IMG/VR virus record: IMGVR_UViG_3300046777_000457 | Coordinates: 1 to 36,474 of that record | Reading direction: 5' to 3' (one strand) | DNA length: 36,474 nt | Source of the DNA: a virus | Shown here: positions 1,654-27,173 of the stretch, in pieces | Numbering within the stretch: position 1 is the stretch's first letter | How the letters are laid out: the number at the start of each line of letters is the position of its first letter | Notes under the pieces: model-generated | The model's database searches: none | What the model was told of the DNA's origin: nothing | Seen by the model: the letters and a program-made list of their open reading frames with translations, nothing else | Translations under genes and position numbers: made by a program

Positions 1654-3609
1654 ATGCCGCTGGCTCCAATCAACATTCCACCCGGCGTTGTGAAGACAGC
1701 AACTCCGCTTCAGGTGAAGGGCCGTTATTGGGACGCCAACTTGATCCGTTGGCGCGCTGGTAAACTGCTGCCTGTTGGTGGCTGGCAGCGTATTACATCA
1801 AGCCCATTGGCAAGCACTCCAAGAATTATCTTTCCTTGGACGTCTCAGCTTGATTCGTTGGTTACAGCCATCGGCTGTGATTCGCATCTTTATGCTCTTC
1901 GCGGCGCTGTCTATGAAGACATTACACCAGACAACTTTGTAACAGCAGAAGCTGGTGAAACTGGTGGCTATGGCGCTGGTGATTATGGTGAGCTGCTTTA
2001 TGGGCTGGACTATGCTGGTGTTGATATTTCAACAGCAGTGCGTAGCTCCAATGTCGTGACCATAACGACAGCAACAGCCAACAAGTTTATCACTGGCATG
2101 TCCGTAATGATTGCTGATGTTACTGACAGCAGCTTTAACGGCACATTTACAGTGACTGTCACAAACTCAACGACATTCACATATTCGCAAACAGCAGCAA
2201 ATGCGTCCTCTACAGGTGGAATAGCATCCTTGCCGACTGCTGATTGGCGTCCTGTTTCTTCTGCGTTTGTCCCGTCATTCAGTTGGACTATCGACAACTG
2301 GGGTGGTGACATTCTTGCAGTTGCATCAAGCGATGGCCGTTTGCTCCATTATCAAGATGGAGAAGATCAAGCCCATGCTGTTGGTTATGATGTTATTGCT
2401 ACGGCGGTGCGATCAAGCAACGTAGTTACCATCACAACAGACTACAATCACGGATATACTATCGGTGATGAGGTTGTAATTGCTGGGACAAGTGTTGGTT
2501 CCATGAACGGGACATTTACCATCACTGGTGTTCCTGCAAGCAATCAATTCACCTACGCAAACTCTGGAACAGATGCGTCTGGAACTGGTGGCACTGCGTC
2601 AATTACGCCTGCTGTTCCTTTGAACAATCGCGGCGTCATTGTTACACCAGAACGTCATGCAGTCCTGATTGGTGCAGGCGGTAATCCTCGTCGTGTTGCA
2701 TGGTCTTCTCGTGAAGATTATGCAGATTGGGACTTTGCTGACACAACCACAACCGCTGGCTATCTTGATCTTGATACATCAAGCAAGATCACGATGTGCG
2801 CTGCTGTCCGTGAAGGCACTCTGATCTGGACGGAAGATGAAGCATGGCTGATGCAGTACATTGGCCTGCCATACATTTACAGCATCACTCGTATTGGTTA
2901 CGGATGCGGTCTGATTGCTCCTCGTGCATTTGCCACTACTGCTGGGCGCTGCATTTGGATGAGCAAAGAATCATTCTGGATCTATGACGGCGGAACAGTG
3001 CGTCCATTGCGCTGCGATGTTGGCTCTTACGTTTTTGAAAATGTAGATCCAGACACAGGCATTCTTTATACGAATGGTGCTGAAAACGGCACATTTCCAG
3101 AAGCATGGTTCTGGTATCCATCTGAGGGATCAGACGTACCTAATAAGTATGTCGTCTATAATTATGCAGAGGATTGGTGGACTATTGGAGAAATGACACG
3201 CACAGCAGCAGTAGGCGCTGGCGTCTTAAAATATCCAATGGCTGCTGATGAAAACAATGACCTGTACTTCCATGAGGATGGATGGACAGCAGCTGGTGCA
3301 TCTTTGGCTGGTGATCGCTGGGTTGAGACATCATCCATCAACATTCAGAACGGAAACCTGATCAGCCATATCAGGCAGGCAATCACAGACAGCGGTTATG
3401 GTTACGACAGCACACAGATCACAGTTTACTCATCCTTCACACCAGAAGGAACAGAAACTGTTTCTGGACCGTACAATCCGCGTTCTAATGGTTATACTGA
3501 TATGCGTGTGTCTGGTCGTGATTTCCGTATGAAAATCACAGCAACAGAAGATGCACCGTGGAGCATCGGTGAAATGCGCGTAGAGTTTATGGGTGGAGGC
3601 GGACGATGA
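1654..3609 (+). CDS. tail nozzle / packaged-DNA-stabilisation-type protein with an internal repeat
   Basis: A 651-residue protein starting MPLAPINIPPGVVKTATPLQ, a beginning I associate with the tail stabilisation or nozzle protein of short-tailed phages (P22 gp10 or T7 gp12 role). This is an assignment by appearance and by position ahead of the ejection genes. Two inserted repeats are visible: about residues 127-200 and 250-328 both run AVRSSNVVTIT, then a G-rich segment, NGTFT, a Thr/Tyr stretch and GTGG or STGG. They look like two copies of a small beta domain inserted in the beta-propeller-like body. AAGGGG lies 8 bases before the ATG. The protein would close the tail tube under the adaptor and portal rings. 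Confidence 0.7.
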   Translation: MPLAPINIPPGVVKTATPLQVKGRYWDANLIRWRAGKLLPVGGWQRITSSPLASTPRIIFPWTSQLDSLVTAIGCDSHLYALRGAVYEDITPDNFVTAEAGETGGYGAGDYGELLYGLDYAGVDISTAVRSSNVVTITTATANKFITGMSVMIADVTDSSFNGTFTVTVTNSTTFTYSQTAANASSTGGIASLPTADWRPVSSAFVPSFSWTIDNWGGDILAVASSDGRLLHYQDGEDQAHAVGYDVIATAVRSSNVVTITTDYNHGYTIGDEVVIAGTSVGSMNGTFTITGVPASNQFTYANSGTDASGTGGTASITPAVPLNNRGVIVTPERHAVLIGAGGNPRRVAWSSREDYADWDFADTTTTAGYLDLDTSSKITMCAAVREGTLIWTEDEAWLMQYIGLPYIYSITRIGYGCGLIAPRAFATTAGRCIWMSKESFWIYDGGTVRPLRCDVGSYVFENVDPDTGILYTNGAENGTFPEAWFWYPSEGSDVPNKYVVYNYAEDWWTIGEMTRTAAVGAGVLKYPMAADENNDLYFHEDGWTAAGASLAGDRWVETSSINIQNGNLISHIRQAITDSGYGYDSTQITVYSSFTPEGTETVSGPYNPRSNGYTDMRVSGRDFRMKITATEDAPWSIGEMRVEFMGGGGR

Positions 3610-3836
3610 ACTTAACCTTTCAGCCAGTTCCTCCGTCATATGATAGTGGATACTTCAACCGTGCTTTTGCTACCTTTTCGCAGGCTATCAACAAGTCTGT
3701 TACAAGATATGAGGCAGTCGAAAGTATCCTCCTGCAAGCACCAAACGGGTCAGTCTGGAAAGTGGTTGTAGACAATAGCGGTAATCTAGCAACAGAGGCA
3801 GTTCCACTTGGACAGCAAGGCGCACCTCCTTACTAA
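3606..3836 (+). CDS. small conserved-type virion-region protein, function unknown
   Basis: A 76-residue protein that starts inside the stop of the nozzle-type gene (ATGA overlap), so it is translationally coupled to it. It contains an aromatic stretch (YDSGYFNRAFATFSQAINKSV) cut short here, then a beta-like part with WKVVVDNSGN. It has no membrane segment, no signal peptide and no cysteine. Small proteins of this kind often follow the stabilisation or nozzle gene in short-tailed phages, where they may be tail accessory or assembly factors. I do not recognise a named family. Confidence 0.65.
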   Translation: MNLTFQPVPPSYDSGYFNRAFATFSQAINKSVTRYEAVESILLQAPNGSVWKVVVDNSGNLATEAVPLGQQGAPPY

Positions 3837-3837
3837 G

Positions 3838-4170
3838 ATGGAGAAAGCACTTAGACTTAATGGCGGTACGCATTCAGTCGGTGATGTCTATCTTGGGTTG
3901 CAGTCGGGTAAGTATCAGGGGTGGTTCACGGATAACTCTGGTGTCATCACCGAGATACTCGTTGGACCACAGAAGAAATGGCTGAACTGTTTTTTGGTGT
4001 TCGGTGACATGGAAGAAGCGATGAGTATGCACCCGCAGGTCATCGCATTTGCAAAGGAGCACGGTTGCTCTTTTATGACCATGAACGGACGCTGGGGATG
4101 GCAGAAAATCCTGCCGAAATATGGATGGACCAACAGGTCGGTGTCGATGGCACTGCCATTGGAGGACTAA
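3838..4170 (+). CDS. GNAT-like small internal virion protein (T7 gp13-like position)
   Basis: A 110-residue protein. I place the start at ATG 3838, one base after the upstream stop, rather than at an upstream in-frame TTG inside the previous gene. No strong ribosome site is seen, so re-initiation after the upstream stop is likely. The segment TMNGRWGWQKILPKYGW resembles the C-terminal beta strand and loop (GR.GW...L...G) of small acetyltransferase-fold proteins found at the T7 gp13 position ahead of ejection proteins. An active acetyltransferase is not implied. The position before the Gln-rich ejection-type gene supports a virion assembly role. Confidence 0.6.
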   Translation: MEKALRLNGGTHSVGDVYLGLQSGKYQGWFTDNSGVITEILVGPQKKWLNCFLVFGDMEEAMSMHPQVIAFAKEHGCSFMTMNGRWGWQKILPKYGWTNRSVSMALPLED

Positions 4171-4171
4171 A

Positions 4172-5107
4172 ATGGGCAAAGGTGGCGGCGGTCAGCAGCA
4201 GGTAGTCAACAAGACAGAACTGCCTGAATGGGTTCAGGAAGCAGGTCGCAAGAACCTTGCTGCTGCATATCAGGTTTCTGAAAACATGATGGGACCGTAT
4301 GAAGGTCAGCGTGTTGCTGGTCTTACAGGCGGTCAGCTTCAGACTATCGGTGACATTGCATCGAGCTATGGCATGGCACAGCCTGCCTATGCTTACGCGC
4401 AGCAGATGGCGGCACAGGCTGGTCAGTATCAGCCGCAGCAGGTACAGGCAGGTCAGCTTGCTTCAACTGATCTTTCTCCATACATGAATCCGTTCACGCA
4501 GTCTGTCCTGCAATCCTCGTTGGACACGTTGAACCAGCAGCGGATGCAGAACCTGAACACGACTGCCGATGCTGCCATCCGTGCCCGTGCATTCGGTGGA
4601 TCAAGGCAGGCGATTCAAGAAGGTGTGGTCAACGCGGCTGCTCAGCAGCAGGCGGCAAACCTTGCTGCTCAGTTGTACTCGCAGAACTTCCAACAGGCGC
4701 AGCAGGCAGCACAGGCTGACTTGGCTCGTCAGATGGCATCGCAGCAGCTTAATCAGGCTGCCGGGTTGCAACAGGCTGGCATTGGTCTGCAAGGTGCACA
4801 GGCATTGGGTGGTTTGGCTGGTGCAGGTCAGCAGGCATATCTTCAGGGCGCCGGGTCTGCATTGGCTGCTCAGTCTGCCTTGCAGCAGCAGCAGCAGGCT
4901 GAACTTGATGCAATGCAGCAGGCTTATCGTGAAGCACAGCAGTTCCCGTTGCAGCAGTTGCAGATTCCTGTCCAAGCACTCGGTGCTACACCGTATGGAC
5001 AGACAAACACGCAAACTGGACCCGGTCCTTCCAGCAACCCATTGCTGACTGGTTTGGGTGCAGCCGCGTCTGCCGCGTCTCTCATCGGTACGATTGCTTC
5101 ACTATGA
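4172..5107 (+). CDS. Gln/Ala-rich putative DNA ejection (internal virion) protein
   Basis: A 311-residue protein. The start is ATG 4172, preceded by a strong GGAGG at 4161-4165. The N-terminus MGKGGGGQQQ followed by LPEWVQEAGRKNLAAAY and PYEGQRVAGLT is a pattern I know from many podophage and marine phage virion proteins. The middle (about 80-270) is very rich in Gln and Ala and should be helical. The C-terminus GLGAAASAASLIGTIASL is a Gly/Ala hydrophobic tail that could insert in membrane. Together with the following genes it resembles an ejection-protein set that is released into the cell envelope at infection. The specific role is inferred. Confidence 0.65.
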   Translation: MGKGGGGQQQVVNKTELPEWVQEAGRKNLAAAYQVSENMMGPYEGQRVAGLTGGQLQTIGDIASSYGMAQPAYAYAQQMAAQAGQYQPQQVQAGQLASTDLSPYMNPFTQSVLQSSLDTLNQQRMQNLNTTADAAIRARAFGGSRQAIQEGVVNAAAQQQAANLAAQLYSQNFQQAQQAAQADLARQMASQQLNQAAGLQQAGIGLQGAQALGGLAGAGQQAYLQGAGSALAAQSALQQQQQAELDAMQQAYREAQQFPLQQLQIPVQALGATPYGQTNTQTGPGPSSNPLLTGLGAAASAASLIGTIASL

Positions 5108-5799
5108 TCGACACTGCACTTCTGTTTAGTGGTGGCAAAGACAGTCTGGCTTGTTTGTATTTGAACAAAGACAAATGGGACCAGATGTATGTTGTATGGC
5201 TAAACACTGGTGCAGCGTATCCTGAGATGGTTGCGTATATGGGTGAATGGAAGAAGAAGCTGCCGCACTTTGTGGAGCTTCATTCCAATCAGCCTGAAAA
5301 CGTGCAGCAGTTTGGCTGGCCTGTTGATGTGTTGCCAGTCAACAACACGATGGTTGGTAAGCACATCAGCGGTGAAACAGGACCATTGATGCAGCCTTAT
5401 GTAGCGTGCTGCTCAACTAACATCTGGATACCTTTGCACTATGGGGTGAAGGATTTAGGTGTTACAAAGGTGATCAAAGGTCAGCGCAATTCTGACGCAA
5501 AAAAGTCAACTGCGCGTAACGGTACAAAGATTGATGGCATTGAGTTTGTAATGCCGATCCAAGATTGGACCGAAGAACAGGTTTACCAGTATCTTGATGA
5601 AGTCGGCGCTGTGCTACCACCGGGATACAAAGAAGGTGAGAAAACAGGAAGAGACTGCTGGGACTGCACCGCATATCTTTCTGACAATATGCAACGGATC
5701 AAGAACCTGTCTCCGTTCAAAAAAGCAGAGGTGCTGCGTAGGTTGAACATCATCGACGAGGCAGTCGGGAAGCAGTGGGTGAGCTATGGCGACTTATGA
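5104..5799 (+). CDS. PAPS-reductase-like PP-loop protein (CysH/DndC superfamily)
   Basis: A 231-residue protein with the PP-loop motif FSGGKDS at residues 8-14, an ATP-pyrophosphatase / adenylyl-sulfate binding signature. Further features of the phosphoadenosine-phosphosulfate reductase family are VWLNTGAAYPE (around 38) and KGQRNSDAKKS (around 122). There are paired cysteines CC at about 103-104 and C..C near 185-188. The classical CysH C-terminal ECGLH motif is not seen, so assimilatory sulfate reduction is uncertain; sulfur transfer to nucleic acid or another AMP-activated reaction is possible. It overlaps the genes on both sides (4 and 14 bases) and lies inside the ejection-protein operon, so it is expressed late with virion genes. 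The superfamily call is firm; the substrate is unknown. Confidence 0.85.
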   Translation: MIDTALLFSGGKDSLACLYLNKDKWDQMYVVWLNTGAAYPEMVAYMGEWKKKLPHFVELHSNQPENVQQFGWPVDVLPVNNTMVGKHISGETGPLMQPYVACCSTNIWIPLHYGVKDLGVTKVIKGQRNSDAKKSTARNGTKIDGIEFVMPIQDWTEEQVYQYLDEVGAVLPPGYKEGEKTGRDCWDCTAYLSDNMQRIKNLSPFKKAEVLRRLNIIDEAVGKQWVSYGDL

Positions 5800-6850
5800 C
5801 GAGATTCTCCGGCAGATTGCCTACAATGAAAGCCGTGGCATTCCGACTGCACGGAATCCATATTCATCTGCTGGCGGAATGTTCCAGTTCATCGACACAA
5901 CATGGGGCAATGTCCTTCGTCGTATGAACCCAGAGCAGTTTGGTAATATGACCAATGCTCAACTTGCACCACTGAAGACTGATCCTAAGTACGTTGATCT
6001 TCAGCAGCAGGCAGCGCAGTTCCATCTGCAAAACGATATCGCCCCTACACTGGAAAAACGCGGTGTTCCGATGACACCGGGAACAGCCTATCTGTCGTGG
6101 TTTCAGGGTCCGGCAGGTGCAGCAAAGCTGTACAATGCACCCGAAGGAACCCGCATTTCTGATATGTTCCCTGAGACAATTGCAGCCAACAAAAACATGA
6201 AGTTCAACGGCAAACCCTATGCCGAGTGGACCCGTGAAGACGCGATTGGCTGGGCAAACAATAAAATGGGTGGCACCGGGCAAACGCCTGCTATGCCAAC
6301 CCAGCAAGCACCTGCAACCCAGATGGCAGATGTAAAAGGCTATCTTGCTCCTGCATCAGCAGCTGAACTTGCTCCGGCTGGTACATGGTCCCGGTTTGGA
6401 CAGGATTTCCTTGGTGGCATGACAGGCGGTCTGCTTGGTACATCTTGGTCAACGCCTGCTGCCAATGCTGCCCAGCCAACACAGGTTGCCTCGATGGCTC
6501 CTGTTGCGGCGCCGCAGCCGACACAGTTTCCAGCTGCAACACCGGGTATGGCTGACAAGGTGACGCTGCCTGCTTCCGTTGGTCAGCCGACGATGCCGCA
6601 GATGCCGGGGTTGAACGCTGGTGCTGGGTATCAAGCTCCACCTGCTTCCGCGATGCAGCCGACATCACAGTCGCTATTCAATCCTGCACCATCTGCTCTA
6701 TCGACAGCAGGCAGCCTTGCAAGCCTTGCCAATGTTGGACTTGGTTTGATGGCAGCAGGTGCAGAGAAGCCGTCATGGCAGCCGGGTGCACCTGCGCCCG
6801 TGCAACGTGGGCAATGGCGTGATATTATATTCTCAGGTCTTTTGGGGTGA
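5786..6850 (+). CDS. virion-associated lytic transglycosylase (ejection protein)
   Basis: A 354-residue protein. Residues 1-160 form an SLT-type transglycosylase-like domain: the probable catalytic E15 in YNESRG, then NPYSSAGGMFQF (around 24-35) and AYLSWFQGPAGAAKLY. The remainder (165-354) is low-complexity Ala/Pro/Gln/Met sequence with a Gly/Ala/Leu-rich segment near the end. There is no signal peptide. This layout fits a virion protein that locally opens peptidoglycan at genome entry, as the N-terminal domain of T7 gp16 does, rather than a lysis enzyme. It overlaps the upstream PP-loop gene by 14 bases. It is the second of three wall-degrading enzymes in the genome. Confidence 0.8.
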   Translation: MATYDEILRQIAYNESRGIPTARNPYSSAGGMFQFIDTTWGNVLRRMNPEQFGNMTNAQLAPLKTDPKYVDLQQQAAQFHLQNDIAPTLEKRGVPMTPGTAYLSWFQGPAGAAKLYNAPEGTRISDMFPETIAANKNMKFNGKPYAEWTREDAIGWANNKMGGTGQTPAMPTQQAPATQMADVKGYLAPASAAELAPAGTWSRFGQDFLGGMTGGLLGTSWSTPAANAAQPTQVASMAPVAAPQPTQFPAATPGMADKVTLPASVGQPTMPQMPGLNAGAGYQAPPASAMQPTSQSLFNPAPSALSTAGSLASLANVGLGLMAAGAEKPSWQPGAPAPVQRGQWRDIIFSGLLG

Positions 6851-6854
6851 TGAC

Positions 6855-7217
6855 ATGGCAAGTCTTGAAGAACAGCTTGGTGCACTTTACCTGCAATCGC
6901 TGACAGGCGGTCAGGGTGAAACTGCTGGCTATGGCATGATGCCTCCGCAGCCGATGCAGCCTGTTGTGCCGACACCTCCGATGCAGCCGATGCAGATGGC
7001 TCCGATCATGCAGGTTCATCCGGCTATCCAGTCTGCATTTCAAACTGCACTGATGAATCAGGCTATGCTTGGAACACAAGCACCACCGTTCAACCCTGCT
7101 GAAGCGCAGGTGAGTGCAAACGAGTTGCCCACGCAATATGGTCGCCTGAAGTTTGAAGGTAACACCGGAACCATCACTCAAGCACCAATCAACTTTGGCG
7201 GTTTGTTGGGCCGATAA
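6855..7217 (+). CDS. Met/Pro/Gln-rich small virion-region protein
   Basis: A 120-residue protein. The start is ATG 6855 just after the previous stop, with GGGGTGA upstream. The centre is a Pro/Met/Gln repeat (PPQPMQPVVPTPPMQPMQM, positions about 25-48), followed by a less biased C-terminal part ending in NFGGLLGR. No catalytic motif, cysteine or membrane segment is visible. Its place between two ejection-type genes suggests a minor virion or assembly protein. The ending NFGGLLG resembles the start of the next protein (NFFGGLLGG), which may reflect a shared short binding motif or chance. No family is recognised. Confidence 0.6.
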   Translation: MASLEEQLGALYLQSLTGGQGETAGYGMMPPQPMQPVVPTPPMQPMQMAPIMQVHPAIQSAFQTALMNQAMLGTQAPPFNPAEAQVSANELPTQYGRLKFEGNTGTITQAPINFGGLLGR

Positions 7218-7228
7218 GGATAAACAAC

Positions 7229-9019
7229 ATGGCACTTCTTGAAGACATCACTGGTGGCATCGGCAACTTCTTTGGTGGGTTGCTGGGTGGCGGTGGTCAG
7301 ACTGGTCAGACTGCTGAAGGTGTGCAGCCGCAGCAGCAGGCAACTGACTTGCTCTCCATGATGTCGCCTGAAGATCAGCGCCGCATGACATACAGCCTGC
7401 TCGGTCAGCTTGGATCGACTTTGCTTGCTGCTGGTCAGAAGCAGATGCCGGGACAGCGTGCACAGTATCTCGCGCAGTTGGGTGCTATCCCCGGCAACGT
7501 GCAGCGTGAAGCAATGGGTAACCTGCAAGCACGCATGATGCAGTCGCAGCTTGCTGAACGGTTGCAGAACCAGCAGTCGCTGGCGCAGATCAATAACTTG
7601 ATGAAAGACCCTGCTGCATTTAAGCAGGCTTACGGTTTTGACCTGCCACCGGGTATGTCTGCCGCACAGGTGCAGAACATCGTACAGCAGCGTGCAACAT
7701 CGCAGTTTGTGAACCCGCTGGCTCGTCAGATTCAAGAAGCACAATATGCCGACATCCTTGCTAATCGTGAGAAGGCTATTACGCAGCTTGAAACGCAGAA
7801 GCAGCAACTTGGTGCAATCGGTGGTGATACATCGCAGATTGATGCACAGATTAACACACTGCGCCGCATTTACGGTGGTGCACCTGCTCCGGCTGCTGCA
7901 CCAGTTGCACCTGCACCAACTCCGATGCTGGTGACGCCTGCTGCACCTGCTGCTGCTCCTGCCGTGACACCGGGTGGTGTCGTGCAGCCGTCTGCACCCG
8001 CTGCCGCTCCTACAGCAGAACAACCATCTGCTGCGCCTGTTACACCTCCGGCTGAAGCACCTGCTGAAGTTGCTCCTGCTGCACCACCATCACTGTTTAC
8101 ACCTCCAGCTGCACCTGCAACTCCTGCTGCAAAGCAAGGTGCTGCACTGTTTGGACAGTTCACCCAGATCCCGCAGGCTGAAGTGCGTCAGCGTTTGCAG
8201 GCTGCAATCGGTGCTGGAAAGTTCCAAGAAGAATATTCAAAGCTGCTGAAGGAAGAACGTGACCAGCTTGGTGAAGAAGGCAAGCGCCGCTTCGATCAAG
8301 AAGGAAAACTGCGTGACTCGTTCAACGCGGCTACGAAGGACTTTTCTACGATCCAGACAGCATACAAGACAATGGAAGGTCTTGCTCAGAATGCAGCAGG
8401 TACAAGTGATCTGACACTCGTCATGTCACTTTATAAAATCTATGATCCCGGTTCAGTCGTGTCCATGAATGAATCCGGTCAGATTATTGGTACTGATTCT
8501 GCTGTTGGCAAGTTCCAAGCATTTGCAAACAGCATGATGACTGGTCAGAAGCTGCGTCCAGAAATCCGTGATCAGGTTCTTGATGCTGCACGTTCTAGGT
8601 TCCGTGAGGTGTACAACGACTATGATCGCCGCGTCACACAAAACAACACACTTGCTGAAAAGTATGGTTTGCAGCCTGATCGTGTTGTTATTGATGTTCG
8701 CGAACCAGAACTTCAGCAGCAGATGGATGCACTGAATCAGCGTGATAAACTGTCAAAGTCGATCAGTGTTGATGCAATCAGCAATGCTTCACTTGATGAC
8801 CTGAACTTGCTGAATAAGCGCGTTTTGAATGCAAACCAGATGGCTGCTGTGAAGAAGCGACTTGAAGAACTCGGTCAGCCTCCTGCGCCACCTGCTTCAT
8901 CTGGAACAGGCACATCTATGATGGGTCCACCAATGCCGCCTCCTATGATTAAGCCTCTTGGTGGAAGCCTAAGCACACTTGGCAACAAACAACTTCTTCC
9001 ACTTGGCTTCGGTCAATAA
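7229..9019 (+). CDS. large Gln-rich putative ejection protein with Ala/Pro linker
   Basis: A 596-residue protein with AAGGAT before the ATG. The N-terminus has a Gly-rich hydrophobic segment (GGIGNFFGGLLGGGG, residues 8-22) that could contact membrane. Residues about 30-215 are helical and Gln-rich. Residues about 218-303 are an Ala/Pro/Thr/Val linker with many PAAP units. The C-terminal half (about 310-570) is charged and probably coiled coil. The order suits a virion protein that unfolds through the tail. Codons in the linker are dominated by GCT, GCA and CCT, giving apparent repeats and spurious long frames on the other strand. No enzyme motif is seen. Confidence 0.65.
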   Translation: MALLEDITGGIGNFFGGLLGGGGQTGQTAEGVQPQQQATDLLSMMSPEDQRRMTYSLLGQLGSTLLAAGQKQMPGQRAQYLAQLGAIPGNVQREAMGNLQARMMQSQLAERLQNQQSLAQINNLMKDPAAFKQAYGFDLPPGMSAAQVQNIVQQRATSQFVNPLARQIQEAQYADILANREKAITQLETQKQQLGAIGGDTSQIDAQINTLRRIYGGAPAPAAAPVAPAPTPMLVTPAAPAAAPAVTPGGVVQPSAPAAAPTAEQPSAAPVTPPAEAPAEVAPAAPPSLFTPPAAPATPAAKQGAALFGQFTQIPQAEVRQRLQAAIGAGKFQEEYSKLLKEERDQLGEEGKRRFDQEGKLRDSFNAATKDFSTIQTAYKTMEGLAQNAAGTSDLTLVMSLYKIYDPGSVVSMNESGQIIGTDSAVGKFQAFANSMMTGQKLRPEIRDQVLDAARSRFREVYNDYDRRVTQNNTLAEKYGLQPDRVVIDVREPELQQQMDALNQRDKLSKSISVDAISNASLDDLNLLNKRVLNANQMAAVKKRLEELGQPPAPPASSGTGTSMMGPPMPPPMIKPLGGSLSTLGNKQLLPLGFGQ

Positions 9020-9027
9020 GGTGAAAC

Positions 9028-10977
9028 ATGGCAGATGATCCTTTTGAAAAACTCCGCAGCCTGAATCTTCCTGCTGGTGCTGCACAGGCGCGTGATCAGC
9101 AGGCAATCATGGCTGGTCTTCGTCAGCAGTATGGTCTGCCATCACAATCGCAGTTTGTGCGTGACGTGCTGCTGCGTCAGGGTCTTGGTCAGGGTGTGCT
9201 GCTTGGTGCAGGTGACGAGGCAGAAGCCTTTGCACGTTCCAAGCTGTACGGCACAAACTATGATGAAGAGTTGGCGCGTGTTCGCGGTGAACTCTCGATT
9301 GCCAAGGCTGAACGTCCTACATCCATGACTGCTGCTGAAGTGGTTGGCTCGTTTGCTCCGGCTGTCGGCATCACGGCACTGACGGGTGGCGCTGCTGCTC
9401 CTGCAATGGCTGCAACATTGCCTGCACGTATAGGTCTGATGGCTGGTCAGGGTGCACTCGGTGGTGTCATCCAAGGCGGTGTTGAAGGTTATCTGAAGGG
9501 TGAAGGATCAGCCGCGCAACGTCTCGATAAGGCTGCTGAAGGTGCATTAATGGGTGGCGGTATTGGCGCTGCTGTCGGTGGTGCATTGCCTGTAGCTGGC
9601 GCTGCATTCCGTGCTGTCAGCCGTACACCTGAGCAACTTGCTGCGGCACGTTTGCAGGGTGTGATGAAGGAAGCAGGCACAACACCTGATGATCTGTTGC
9701 GCACATACCAGCAGCAGCAGGCGCGTGGCGTGAAGCCTGAAGTGCTGGCTGAAGTTGTTCCTCCGACCAGCCCGATCGTCCGTGAAACAGAGCGACTGGC
9801 TACTGCACCCGGCAGCCGTGGAATGGCTGAAGCACTGGAGCAGCGTGCACTGTCACAAGGTCAGCGTGTTGAAGAAGGGTTCCAGCAGGCAATCGGTCAG
9901 CAGAAGAACCTGTTTGCCGCGTTGGATGATCTCAAGGCTGTCCGTGAACAGCAGGCGCGTCCTCTGTACCGTGCTGCCGATCCAATCAGTGCACGCACTG
10001 ACACAATGGATGATCTGCTGAAACGTGTTCCGAAGTCTGTCTTTGGTGAAATCGAGCAGGCTGCTGGCATTGGTCAAACGGCGCCCAAAGCTATCGTTGA
10101 AATCGGTGACAACGGTGCGCAGGTGGTGCGGAACTATACCTATGCAGAAGTTGATGCCATCCAGCGTGCTTTGGATGACGCCGCGTCTGCCGCGTATCGT
10201 GGTGGCAAGGGTAATCTGGGCAACAAGCTGGCTGGGTTGCGCGATGACATCGTCAATGCGGCTGAAGCAGGTTCACAAGAATACCGTGCTGCTCGTCAGA
10301 TTTGGGCAGGCAGCCAGTCTGCTGAACGTGCAATGGATCAGGGCCGCAACTTCCTGAAGCAGCGTGCTGAACTGACAACCCGTGCAATCGACAAGATGTC
10401 TCAGGCTGACAAGGAAGCATATCTGGTTGGTGTCTTTGATGCCGTCAATGATGTGATCCTTGGCAAGCTGCCGGGTCGTGATGTCACACAGGCATTTAAA
10501 AGCGGCAAGGCGCAGAACCAGATCGAAGCAGCTATCAAGGCTGTGACCAATGATCCTGTGCAGGCAAAGGCTATCACCGACAGCCTGATGGACAACATCG
10601 CCCGTGAATCACGGATGATGCTGACTCGCGCTGGAACCAAGGGCAGCCGTACACAGCCGTTGCAGGCTGAAACAGCAGGCTTCTTGGAGCAGATCAGCCC
10701 GATGGCAGGCATTGCTGGGGAACTGGCATCAGGTGGCCCCACGATGGGCCTGATGGCGCGTGCTGCTAGGGGCATCGGTGAACGCATCTCTACCGGGATG
10801 ACGCAGGCACGGCAGGCACAGACAAACGAGTTGCTGGGCAAACTGCTGCTATCCACGAAGCAGAGCGACATCGAAGAAGCATTGAAGCGGTTGCAGCAGG
10901 TTCAGACGCAGCCGCAGATGCCGGGTGTCATCCAGAAGGGTCTGCTCGGTGGTGCATTGGGTGGCATTGGTCAGTAA
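9028..10977 (+). CDS. large putative ejection protein with glycine-zipper membrane region
   Basis: A 649-residue protein with AAGGTGA before the ATG. The N-terminal 90 residues contain GAGDEAEAFARSK and YDEELARVRGEL, a segment I associate with prophage and phage virion proteins. Residues about 105-200 are Gly/Ala-rich with small-residue spacing (LTGGAAAPAM, GGVIQGGVEGYL, GGGIGAAVGGALPVAG), as in glycine zippers that insert in membranes. The rest is helical, Gln-rich and charged. It is the last gene before the terminator at 11008 and so ends the ejection operon. It may form part of a trans-envelope channel. The function is inferred from context and composition. Confidence 0.65.
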   Translation: MADDPFEKLRSLNLPAGAAQARDQQAIMAGLRQQYGLPSQSQFVRDVLLRQGLGQGVLLGAGDEAEAFARSKLYGTNYDEELARVRGELSIAKAERPTSMTAAEVVGSFAPAVGITALTGGAAAPAMAATLPARIGLMAGQGALGGVIQGGVEGYLKGEGSAAQRLDKAAEGALMGGGIGAAVGGALPVAGAAFRAVSRTPEQLAAARLQGVMKEAGTTPDDLLRTYQQQQARGVKPEVLAEVVPPTSPIVRETERLATAPGSRGMAEALEQRALSQGQRVEEGFQQAIGQQKNLFAALDDLKAVREQQARPLYRAADPISARTDTMDDLLKRVPKSVFGEIEQAAGIGQTAPKAIVEIGDNGAQVVRNYTYAEVDAIQRALDDAASAAYRGGKGNLGNKLAGLRDDIVNAAEAGSQEYRAARQIWAGSQSAERAMDQGRNFLKQRAELTTRAIDKMSQADKEAYLVGVFDAVNDVILGKLPGRDVTQAFKSGKAQNQIEAAIKAVTNDPVQAKAITDSLMDNIARESRMMLTRAGTKGSRTQPLQAETAGFLEQISPMAGIAGELASGGPTMGLMARAARGIGERISTGMTQARQAQTNELLGKLLLSTKQSDIEEALKRLQQVQTQPQMPGVIQKGLLGGALGGIGQ

Positions 10978-25254: not shown

Positions 25255-25773
25255 ATGGCTCGTATGCCTGAAGGGATCGGCCTTCTGTCAACTCGTATGC
25301 AAGAGATGATGGGTGAAGGTGAGATGGATCGTTCTTGCCCGGTGGCAACGCGAGACATGACGTTGAACTTGAAGAACCGTGGCAAGGCAATCAAGGTTGC
25401 CATGTATGGTCCTATGAATCCTGCTGAACCCAATGACGATTACTGGGCAAAACTTGCTGCAAAGTGGGATGTTCCTGCGGAAGAAGCACGAACAATGCGC
25501 TGCGGTAATTGCGCTGCATTCATCCAGACTGCAAAGATGCTGAAGTGCATCGAAGAAGGGCTGGCTGATGGCGATAACAAAGCGGATGCCATGGAGACTA
25601 TTGAAGCGGGTGATCTTGGCTACTGTGAAGTCTTCGACTTCAAGTGTGCCGCAGACCGCACCTGCTCCGCATGGATCGTCGGCGGACCTGTCACCGATGA
25701 AGAAGGTGAAGATGACGAGTACGAAGATGAAGACAGTGAAATGTACTCATCTGAAAACGGGGAAATGGACTGA
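25255..25773 (+). CDS. cysteine-rich protein with possible metal or Fe-S site
   Basis: A 172-residue protein. From about residue 82 it has MRCGNCAAF, then C near 98, GYCEVFDFKC near 122-131 and RTCSAWIVGG near 134-143: six or seven cysteines in a compact domain. The pattern ending C.A.RTC.AW recalls HiPIP-like iron-sulfur proteins annotated in some phages, but zinc binding is equally possible. The N-terminal part has MYGPMNPAEPNDDYWAK. The last 30 residues are almost all acidic (DEEGEDDEYEDEDSEM). It overlaps the glycosyltransferase gene by one base. The function is unknown. Confidence 0.7.
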   Translation: MARMPEGIGLLSTRMQEMMGEGEMDRSCPVATRDMTLNLKNRGKAIKVAMYGPMNPAEPNDDYWAKLAAKWDVPAEEARTMRCGNCAAFIQTAKMLKCIEEGLADGDNKADAMETIEAGDLGYCEVFDFKCAADRTCSAWIVGGPVTDEEGEDDEYEDEDSEMYSSENGEMD

Positions 25774-26456
25774 TGAATCTTAGCATCTGTGTTCCTGCGC
25801 GGGAGACTGTGAACACAGGGTTTTCGTATGATCTTGCTATGTTGTGTGCACGGTTTTACGGAAATGCTCCTGCGGGTACAACATTCAACCTGAACTTTCT
25901 CAACGGGACTTTGATTGCAGATCAGCGGTCAAAGCTCGTTGAGATGAGTCTGAAACAAGGTGCAACGCATATCCTGTTTCTGGATAGTGATATGCGTTTC
26001 CCGTCATATTTAGTCGAACGCCTAACTAAGCATGACAAAGACATCGTTGCCTGCAACTATGCAACGCGGCGCCTGCCTGTAAAGACGGTGGCATTTAAGG
26101 ACTTTTCTAAGCTGTCGTATATGTATTCGATGGACAAGAATGGACTTGAAGAATGTGACGCTGTTGGAATGGGCTGTATGCTGATCAAGGCAGATGTGTT
26201 CAAGCAGGTCAGCTATCCTTGGTTCCAGATACATTATCTGCCATCCGCGCGTATGTGGATGGGCGAAGATATGTACTTCTGTCAGGCAGCGAAGATGGCT
26301 GGGAAGCAGATTTGGATTGACCATGATCTATCAAAGGACATCCGGCACATCGGGTCTTTTGAGTTTGGACATGAACACACTGAACAGGCTCTGGCCGATG
26401 ATGAGGCGCTGGCAGCAGCGGCTGAGAAGATCAAGGAGATGAGCGATGAAGGGTAA
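25773..26456 (+). CDS. GT-A type glycosyltransferase-like protein
   Basis: A 227-residue protein. It starts MNLSICVPARETVNTGF, as in family 2-type glycosyltransferases, and has the DxD motif FLDSDMRFP (D71, D73) that binds nucleotide-sugar and metal. The later part has GMGCMLIKADVF and MWMGEDMYFC, where E and D fit the acceptor-side acidic residues. The length is that of a single GT-A domain. The C-terminus is an acidic helix. Substrates might be capsid or tail protein, phage DNA base or host surface glycan. It shares an operon with a methyltransferase and the portal gene. Confidence 0.82.
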   Translation: MNLSICVPARETVNTGFSYDLAMLCARFYGNAPAGTTFNLNFLNGTLIADQRSKLVEMSLKQGATHILFLDSDMRFPSYLVERLTKHDKDIVACNYATRRLPVKTVAFKDFSKLSYMYSMDKNGLEECDAVGMGCMLIKADVFKQVSYPWFQIHYLPSARMWMGEDMYFCQAAKMAGKQIWIDHDLSKDIRHIGSFEFGHEHTEQALADDEALAAAAEKIKEMSDEG

Positions 26457-26613
26457 GTCAAAGATCGCCAAGGTGATGGGCGAATACAAGAAGGGTACAC
26501 TTCATGCGGGTGTGAACCCGAAGGGACCGAAGAAGGCTCCTTTGGCTAAATCACGGAAGCAGGCGATTGCGATTGCTTTGTCTGAAGCCGGGATGAGCAA
26601 GAAGAAGAAGTGA
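26446..26613 (+). CDS. 55-residue basic protein, DUF6496-like
   Basis: The ATG at 26446 overlaps the glycosyltransferase gene by 11 bases and has AAGGAGA upstream. The sequence KVMGEYKKGTLHAGVNPKGP followed by SRKQAIAIALSEAGMSKKKK matches the small DUF6496 family, known from phages and bacteria: a short basic protein with conserved RKQAIAIALSEA. The end is a run of lysines. The stop overlaps the next gene (TGATG). Its role is unknown; DNA or RNA binding is plausible because of the charge. Confidence 0.75.
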   Translation: MKGKSKIAKVMGEYKKGTLHAGVNPKGPKKAPLAKSRKQAIAIALSEAGMSKKKK

Positions 26614-27173
26614 TGGACCACTTCTACGACCAGATTCAAGGCTGGTTTAACTTCAAAGAACCGTATCGTCAGGCTGTCCGTGAGGCATCTGATGGTGCGG
26701 TTTTCGTTGAATTAGGGTGCTGGAAGGGTAAATCGGCCGTGTTTCTTGGTGTTGAGGTAATCAACTCCGGCAAAGCGGTTTCCGTTCATTATGTCGATCA
26801 TTGGGGAGGTTCTGATGAACCTGCACACAAAGCTGATCCTGATCTGGAGCGCGTGTTTGACGTTTTCCAAGGCAACATTGCACTTCTGCGCGGGCTTGAT
26901 TGCATTGTGCATCGACGGTCTACGGTGGATGCTGCAAAAGACTTTGCAGATGGCAGCGTGGATTTCATCTGGGTTGATGCAGGCCATGAGCACGATGAAG
27001 TCTTGGCTGACATCACTGCGTGGTGGCCGAAGCTAAAAGTCGGCGGCGTCATGGGCGGTGACGATTACCCTATGGATGGTGTAAAATCAGCCGTGAAACA
27101 GTTTTTTCCGCAGCATGAGGTCGGCACAGAGGGTGGCTGGCAGTGGTGGCGGGTACGGAAAAGAGGTCAATGA
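26613..27173 (+). CDS. class I SAM-dependent methyltransferase
   Basis: A 186-residue protein starting at ATG 26613, which overlaps the upstream stop. The SAM-binding loop is VELGCWKGKSAVF (E33, G35, K37); a Tyr/Asp motif VHYVDHWGG follows, then VDFIWVDAGHEHDEV as the post-strand-4 region and LKVGGVMGGDDY as strand 5. This is the Methyltransf_24 type, which often acts on sugars or small molecules. Pairing with a glycosyltransferase suggests a two-step modification of a glycan (sugar added, then methylated). It overlaps the portal gene start. Confidence 0.85.
   Translation: MDHFYDQIQGWFNFKEPYRQAVREASDGAVFVELGCWKGKSAVFLGVEVINSGKAVSVHYVDHWGGSDEPAHKADPDLERVFDVFQGNIALLRGLDCIVHRRSTVDAAKDFADGSVDFIWVDAGHEHDEVLADITAWWPKLKVGGVMGGDDYPMDGVKSAVKQFFPQHEVGTEGGWQWWRVRKRGQ

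Follow-up and report, generated by a model that had tools for sequence, protein, structure and literature searches.

A PP-loop gene of the PAPS-reductase fold exchanges with a Peptidase_S74 tail at the end of a phage ejection-protein gene

Why a phage should keep a gene resembling phosphoadenosine phosphosulfate (PAPS) reductase among the genes for its ejection proteins is the question raised by IMG/VR virus record IMGVR_UViG_3300046777_000457, all 36,474 bases of which were analysed and are called the window below. The gene, an open reading frame (ORF) at 5104-5799 on the plus strand, runs from ATG to TGA and encodes a PP-loop protein of 231 amino acids (aa). A preliminary description made from the sequence had it overlapping two ejection-type genes, one on either side, and this was borne out. 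It shares 4 bases (ATGA) with the upstream gene, here called EJ1, and 14 bases with the downstream ORF. EJ1 (4172-5107, plus strand) was identified by alignment and by PHROG 4287, DNA ejection protein (1.6e-16); its ORF is listed from 4121 and the start at 4172 was taken from aligned relatives. The downstream gene (5786-6850, plus strand) encodes a transglycosylase-type virion/ejection protein of 354 aa (PHROG 4067, transglycosylase, 3.2e-14; Pfam SLT at 0.002, below the cut-off). Here we describe the PP-loop gene as an optional module that follows the 3' end of EJ1 and is exchanged there for a Peptidase_S74 tail, which many relatives carry. The account we favour, with moderate confidence, is that this exchangeable gene encodes a PP-loop ATP pyrophosphatase which has lost reductase chemistry and kept the columns of an iron-sulfur (Fe-S) site.

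The PP-loop protein matched Pfam PAPS_reduct at 6e-15 and the PHROG family phosphoadenosine phosphosulfate reductase at 2.9e-19. Comparison of the gene with six close relatives gave nonsynonymous (dN) and synonymous (dS) divergences of 0.029-0.074 and 0.30-0.96; the dN/dS of 0.05-0.10 indicates purifying selection, and the ORF is therefore a real, working gene. Its motifs and synteny were conserved across roughly 100 loci, a count that takes in near-identical copies. Because it is placed between ejection-type genes the PP-loop gene is probably made late, as had been proposed, and translationally coupled between them.

Exchange with a Peptidase_S74 tail

Presence of the gene was surveyed in 80 loci anchored on the gp10-like virion gene upstream. 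Among the 46 that reach at least 2.4 kb downstream, the PP-loop gene was found in 28 and not in 18, and among the loci listed EJ1 was longer where it was missing. The extension was Pfam Peptidase_S74 (PF13884, 'chaperone of endosialidase') in all four cases tested. EJ1 in the window is the short form, ending ...SLIGTIASL without this tail. In a collection of 125 EJ1 frames, 111 could be judged and gave 93 with the PP-loop gene and no S74 tail, 18 with the tail and no PP-loop gene, none with both and none with neither (66 and 14 by distinct EJ1 sequence); this sample is enriched for the PP-loop gene, as many loci were fetched with its protein, and some contigs were counted twice. A sample based on EJ1 itself, the best 80 of at least 488 loci, gave 65 judged frames (17 were not judged), with 13 PP, 15 S74, 37 neither and again none with both; two loci contributed two frames each, some contigs are common to both samples, and S74 tails were identified with our own profile built from 14 tails. 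The PP-loop gene and the S74 tail are thus each optional, and none of the judged loci has both.

The boundary between the shared and the exchanged DNA was sharp in two pairs of loci. Between L119, which carries the PP-loop gene, and L123, which carries the S74 tail, DNA identity was 87.8% up to a point 10 bases before the EJ1 stop codon of L119 and 244 bases before that of L123, and identity (86.8%) resumed 691 bases after the L119 stop, at the L123 stop. A second pair, L053 and L110, broke at nearly the same places, with 82.0% identity before and 74.2% after.

The position of this joint was also examined in the proteins. Cleavage of S74 domains falls just before a Ser, and a Ser(+5)Lys motif started 19 of 19 distinct S74 tails of the near clade. 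EJ1 of the PP type ended a median of 18 residues after its last GxG (10-90% range 15-20, n=66), and in EJ1 of the S74 type a median of 19 residues separated the last GxG from the tail Ser (15-26, n=19). Passages of two papers describe autoprocessing by the conserved Ser and Lys of the S74 domain (PMC11058221, PMC7824862). Since the PP-type end lies at about the position of the tail Ser and such autoprocessing is described, the mature EJ1 proteins of the two alleles may be of similar length if the tail self-cleaves; EJ1 would then end at about the same point whether the tail is removed or never encoded. All 67 distinct PP-type EJ1 proteins ended in L, F, M or I, as did 16 of 37 of the neither type, and one of these residues preceded the S74 tail Ser in 16 of 25. 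At distant PP loci the upstream genes ended in L, F or M in 22 of 28 cases (of 32 loci, three yielded no upstream gene and one duplicated another), the six exceptions including two methyltransferases and one methyltransferase-like protein. The terminal-residue pattern is a hint towards a hypothetical replacement of the S74 tail in function by the PP-loop protein, and shared descent may explain it.

Recurrence of the exchange was assessed on a tree of 84 EJ1 sequences from which the tails had been removed and four loci (L044, L056, L073, L201) left out. The PP and S74 states alone required five changes and three states required seven. Counting well-supported branches only, the PP label was forced to change at least five times and the S74 label likewise five times, each label being set against all other sequences. 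A quick tree of 88 sequences gave the same total, with four (PP) and five (S74) forced changes.

The same pattern was found in a second, distant lineage, that of the ejection-position protein gp64 of the Lessievirus JC1. This protein matched 37 phage records, 30 of them listed, and 11 of the 29 non-Burkholderia records were examined; the other 18 include duplicates of these 11. A protein of a Roseicitreum plasmid also matched JC1 gp64. The ejection proteins of the 11 phages (386-437 aa) align with JC1 gp64, BcepIL02 gp66 and a Chromobacterium protein, all three of which stop where the extra domain of the others begins: JC1 ends ...GIMAF, and SopranoGao reads ...GLMAF followed by SSKEFK. Pfam S74 was matched in 11 of 14 Lessievirus-like ejection proteins, which equals the number extending past the joint (the matches were not given by name). 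None of the 11 examined phages was among the ten phage records with a match to the PP-loop protein, and at E<=0.1 Pfam S74 was found in none of nine ejection-position proteins that are followed by the PP-loop gene, two of these nine being also among the 14. By these sequence comparisons the exchange of PP-loop gene and S74 tail at the same joint is recurrent, in two far lineages.

Beside the enrichment of the first sample, several observations weigh against this interpretation. The break was less clean between the window and L173, where the upstream side alone aligned, and between L020 and L170, which aligned as far as 73 and 280 bases upstream of the stop and patchily from there on. A test on independent pairs found three to four opposite out of five and none the same way (median p 0.125), which is not significant because five pairs cannot reach significance. 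The Chromobacterium ejection-position protein that precedes a PP-loop gene carries the annotation 'tail fiber domain-containing', as do several S74 proteins; it had no Pfam S74 match at E<=0.1 and ends at the joint. Alleles with neither module made up 37 of the 65 frames of the EJ1-based sample and included the near relatives L186, L191 and L212. In L212, EJ1 (end at 2411) is close to that of the S74-tailed L125 and ends near the joint with neither S74 nor the PP-loop gene after it, so the S74 tail can be lost without gain of the PP-loop gene. No alternative enzyme was recognised in ten such loci inspected by eye, and no convincing ORF was listed in the first 0.7-1.1 kb after EJ1 in L191, L197 and L209. 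Finally, mutual exclusion does not prove shared function, because alternative alleles of a single joint cannot occur together whatever their functions. We considered a strict functional replacement of S74 by the PP-loop protein, and as alleles with neither exist this was not supported.

Fold and residues of the PP-loop protein

The AlphaFold model of the PP-loop protein, built with 47 aligned sequences, had a predicted local distance difference test score (pLDDT) of 95.9. Its best matches among solved structures were reductases of PAPS and adenosine phosphosulfate (APS), at Z 13.7-15.3, and the resemblance to PAPS reductase noted at the outset thus holds for the predicted fold. The reductases were tied with the ATP sulfurylase CysD (Z 14.2; 141 residues aligned at a root-mean-square deviation of 2.4) and human FAD synthase (14.0), and GMP synthetase, LarE, QueC, NcsA and TtuA followed at Z 10.8-12.8.

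Residues were counted in 103 copies of the family, the window included and near-identical copies kept, of which 100 are not cut by a contig end; these remained from 106 PP loci after L104, L105 and L106 were dropped as remote matches only (L105 and L106 being CysD-like). In the window the motif SGGKDS, already reported as intact, lies at residues 9-14, and SGG[KR][DE]S was intact in all 103 copies. The window protein has five cysteines in all (17, 102, 103, 185 and 188), four of which form a CC at 102-103 and a CxxC at 185-188. CC was present in 103 of 103 copies and CxxC in 100 of 100 full-length ones, with a spacing of 83 residues between them in 72 of the 100. This cysteine set, missed by the preliminary description, was aligned with E. 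coli CysH and with L176, an APS-reductase-like CysH from a Hyphomonadaceae genome (TIGR02055 E 7e-48, yet below that model's cut-off), and the CC and CxxC columns of the family coincide with those of L176.

These cysteines and the fold are what would speak for a true PAPS or APS reductase that supplies sulfite for cysteine, as a cysH auxiliary metabolic gene would; the Pfam match and the annotation of the Lessievirus proteins point the same way. The defining residues do not. The C-terminal ECGLH of CysH was not found in the window protein, and no ECGLH-like C-terminus was seen in any of the 100 full-length copies, 93 of which have no Cys at all after CxxC; the doubt about CysH raised in the preliminary description was right. 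Sulfonucleotide reductases have a conserved Lys with a role shortly after the CC columns. This column is K in E. coli CysH and L176; in the 103 phage copies it holds I, L, V, M or F in 102 and R in one. At the PP-loop itself the phage family has SGGK where E. coli CysH and L176 have SSFG. NCBIfam models for cysH and APS reductase scored far below their cut-offs (34.7 vs 154, 28.9 vs 165.1 and 23.8 vs 235.3). By its defining residues the PP family is not CysH, a reductase function is highly improbable, and the suggested supply of sulfur through sulfonucleotide reduction is unlikely on the same residue grounds.

As SGGKDS and the APS-reductase-like CC and CxxC are kept and ECGLH and the Lys are gone, the protein is probably an adenylating PP-loop enzyme and probably binds a [4Fe-4S] cluster. 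Such an enzyme would bind ATP through SGGKDS and adenylate a substrate with release of pyrophosphate, and the cluster held by Cys-Cys and CxxC would have a structural role or take part in sulfur or redox chemistry once the substrate is activated. Against the cluster, the CC...CxxC set could bind zinc instead.

Three known systems bear on this assignment. Assimilatory APS reductases, the [4Fe-4S] CysH enzymes (PDB 2goy, 7lhr; Z 13.7-14.3), have a like fold, and the CC...CxxC of the PP family lies at the columns of the APS-reductase-like L176; the PP family differs from these enzymes in having neither ECGLH nor the Lys after CC and in its SGGKDS loop, where they have SSFGAES. CasCysH of type IV-B CRISPR systems likewise has an SGGxDS PP-motif and no catalytic Cys, and AMPylation of a substrate instead of reduction has been proposed for it in section 7 of PMC8175902. 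A Rhodococcus CasCysH is 25% identical to the PP-loop protein (E 3e-3); it differs in having no CC or CxxC and in standing beside a RAMP CRISPR gene rather than virion genes. The Fe-S thiolases TtuA and NcsA, together with LarE, share the PP-loop fold at Z around 11, some of their structures containing Fe-S; they are structurally less similar to the PP-loop protein than CysH is, in a comparison by fold.

In a tree of the phage family with CysH, CysD, CasCysH and others the phage proteins formed one side of a branch with support 86. The set contained no DndC; L175 in it is the CysD adjoining the APS reductase, and L176 served as the comparison protein. Long branches leave the nearest cellular sister of the family unsure.

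Relatives, neighbours and site of action

Relatives of the PP-loop protein were found in IMG/VR in 23 loci at 63-95% identity, with a wider set formed by the best 80 of 151, in seven loci of bacterial genome contigs, three of them remote, and in ten phage records (MW202711 at 47%, eight Lessievirus records at 36-37% and Aeromonas phiA008 at 35%). Gene order in the annotated records runs from a stabilisation, closure or internal virion protein through a GNAT acetyltransferase or hypothetical protein and an ejection-position protein to the PP-loop gene and then further virion or hypothetical proteins. In the Lessieviruses, which infect Burkholderia, a giant protein ends the same order, and phiA008 carries hypothetical names only. 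The same gene cluster with the PP-loop gene was present in two phage-like plasmids.

Among the 106 PP loci, the window included and some near-identical, EJ1 of the window type was directly upstream in 71 by profile; 34 have another or unclassified upstream gene and one ends there. Thirty upstream genes picked from distant PP loci gave 12 matches to phrog_6121 and nine to phrog_8003, both 'virion structural protein', and a few were other genes, for example GNAT or methyltransferase. None of the mapped viral relatives carries the gene as an ordinary early metabolic gene. One point against a fixed virion setting is a remote homologue on plasmid pMt-1 of Methylobacterium tardum (29% identity; L261:6905-7774), which lies away from virion genes. 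This homologue has the same CC and CxxC columns and may stand close to where the phage family branched from its cellular relatives.

Several further relatives deserve mention. In phiA008 the PP-loop frame (L028:8941-9660) begins upstream of the annotated coding sequence at 9130-9663, whose start omits the SGG motif. A Caballeronia contig (genome G001, contig 40) has a PP relative at 39373 and, about 29 kb apart near 10313, a second PP-loop gene (L177) of another subfamily, with SGGKDS and one Cys followed by CxxC. Class I methyltransferase genes stand directly before the PP-loop gene at L080:3711-4388 and L081:6702-7343 (Pfam Methyltransf_11/25) and, by eye, probably in L093. The Comamonas thiooxydans plasmid NZ_CP083940 (L258:7446-8708) encodes a 420-aa protein annotated 'methyltransferase type 11', with the PP domain at its C-terminal end. 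Its gene sits in the same slot, preceded by genes for a GNAT and a hypothetical protein; the protein had no Pfam methyltransferase match at E<=0.1 and PAPS_reduct at only 0.0006. Fusions of the ejection and PP-loop proteins were considered and rejected in two sets of loci. The long ORFs of L077 and L095 are Arg-rich shadow frames with no blastp match to upstream ejection proteins, and the genes of L080 and L081, with an N-terminal match to PHROG 424, are the methyltransferases.

Direct information on the site of action comes from the Lessievirus JC1, where the PP relative is gp65. Table 6 of PMC9144972, which gives 16 virion proteins from a ghost band, ranks gp64 fourth by score (9 unique peptides, 45% coverage) and includes gp67-gp69; gp63 (GNAT) and gp65 are not among the 16. 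These data speak against bulk packaging of the PP protein in JC1, a relative at 36% identity, and the idea that the enzyme travels in the virion finds no support in them. In the favoured reading the PP-loop enzyme would act in the infected cell and not as a bulk component of the virion.

Absence from the virion list also fits a moron, here an accessory enzyme that works on the metabolism or the macromolecules of the host, for which the EJ1 joint would be a tolerated insertion point in the late operon and the alternation with S74 would have no functional meaning. The text on gp65 by the JC1 authors uses that name, the gene is optional (missing in 18 of the 46 gp10-anchored loci, with 37 of the 65 EJ1-sample frames holding neither module), and the plasmid pMt-1 has a remote homologue elsewhere. 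We regard this as possible and yet clearly less probable than the favoured reading, as the slot is kept, behind EJ1 of the window type in 71 of the 106 loci and behind other virion proteins in many of the remainder, down to 36-37% identity, the exchange is repeated at the same joint, and in two far lineages the stop codon lies close to where the S74 serine is predicted.

The remaining genes around the joint are all on the plus strand. The gp10/stabilisation-like virion protein (1654-3609, 651 aa) matched PHROG 3287, virion structural protein, at 1.3e-82, and is syntenic in relatives, as is a small conserved protein of 76 aa (3606-3836). Next comes a GNAT-fold protein of 120 aa with a TTG start (3808-4170), a probable acyltransferase at the same position as the annotated Lessievirus N-acetyltransferase; it had no Pfam match, and its AlphaFold model (pLDDT 85.9) gave 50 displayed PDB matches mostly named acetyltransferases (Z 8.9-10.6). 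All 46 testable gp10-anchored loci contained a relative of it, with or without the PP-loop gene, and the GNAT protein is therefore not a specific partner of it. Downstream of the transglycosylase-type gene lie a small protein of the ejection cluster (6855-7217, 120 aa; syntenic in relatives) and two larger syntenic proteins of that cluster, at 7229-9019 (596 aa; PHROG 13634, unknown, 9.5e-15) and 9028-10977 (649 aa; PHROG 5880, unknown, 7e-47). Eight proteins between 1654 and 10974 matched virion families or nothing in Pfam and PHROG; no search with csf models was made. Elsewhere in the window, adjoining glycosyltransferase-like (25773-26456) and class I methyltransferase-like (26610-27173) genes were seen by eye upstream of a portal-like gene.

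Possible substrates and meaning

Sulfur transfer to nucleic acid, in the manner of DndC or a tRNA thiolase, was among the possibilities first proposed; the enzyme would adenylate the nucleic acid and pass on sulfur from its cluster. Intact SGGKDS and four conserved Cys agree with this, the Fe-S thiolases NcsA and TtuA and the sulfur transferase LarE are found at Z around 11, and the methyltransferase gene directly before the PP-loop gene in L080 and L081 would fit thiolation followed by methylation. We consider it doubtful nonetheless, as no DndC model appeared among PADLOC or NCBIfam matches at E<=10 (SspD in PADLOC reached only 0.002) and the position among ejection genes gives no call for it. 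Aminotran_5, the cysteine desulfurase family, was found in none of nine virus records, which are possibly fragments (controls 14 of 14 positive), though a host enzyme could serve.

A more specific candidate substrate is EJ1, whose C-terminus would be freed by autocleavage in S74 alleles and is encoded directly in PP alleles. The PP protein might adenylate or thiolate the C-terminal carboxylate, or aid ATP-dependent folding, as a trans-acting substitute for the autoprocessing chaperone. We hold this to be unlikely; if true, it would be a new kind of virion-protein maturation.

Part of this system was known. The PAPS reductase-like proteins of Lessieviruses (BcepIL02 gp67, JC1 gp65, CSP3 orf41) are homologous at 36-37% identity, with the same motifs, and they too follow genes for a GNAT protein and an ejection-position virion protein; the family is thus already known there by annotation, as PAPS reductase and moron. 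The descriptions present them as sulfate-reduction morons, and the passages on these genes make no mention of missing catalytic residues or of alternation with S74. The alternative EJ1 module, with its Ser(+5)Lys start, is the same domain (PF13884) as that of auto-processing S74 tails, which passages of PMC7824862 and PMC11058221 describe on tail fibres, spikes and low-complexity proteins; here its carrier is an ejection protein, and a PP-loop gene is its alternative. No link between PP-loop proteins and S74 was found in a literature search of open-licence PMC papers, judged from listings and the starts of abstracts. What is new is the residue-level case against a reductase function in the PP family and the recurrent exchange with an S74 tail on an ejection protein.

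Many papers name viral PAPS-reductase-like genes cysH auxiliary metabolic genes, and the PP family may be among those counted. Since the PP family lacks the catalytic residues and lies among virion-ejection genes, counts of cysH auxiliary genes need a check of the residues. Exchange with an S74 tail at one joint in two far lineages makes the function of the PP-loop protein testable, and suggests the neighbouring ejection protein as the first candidate in the search for its substrate.

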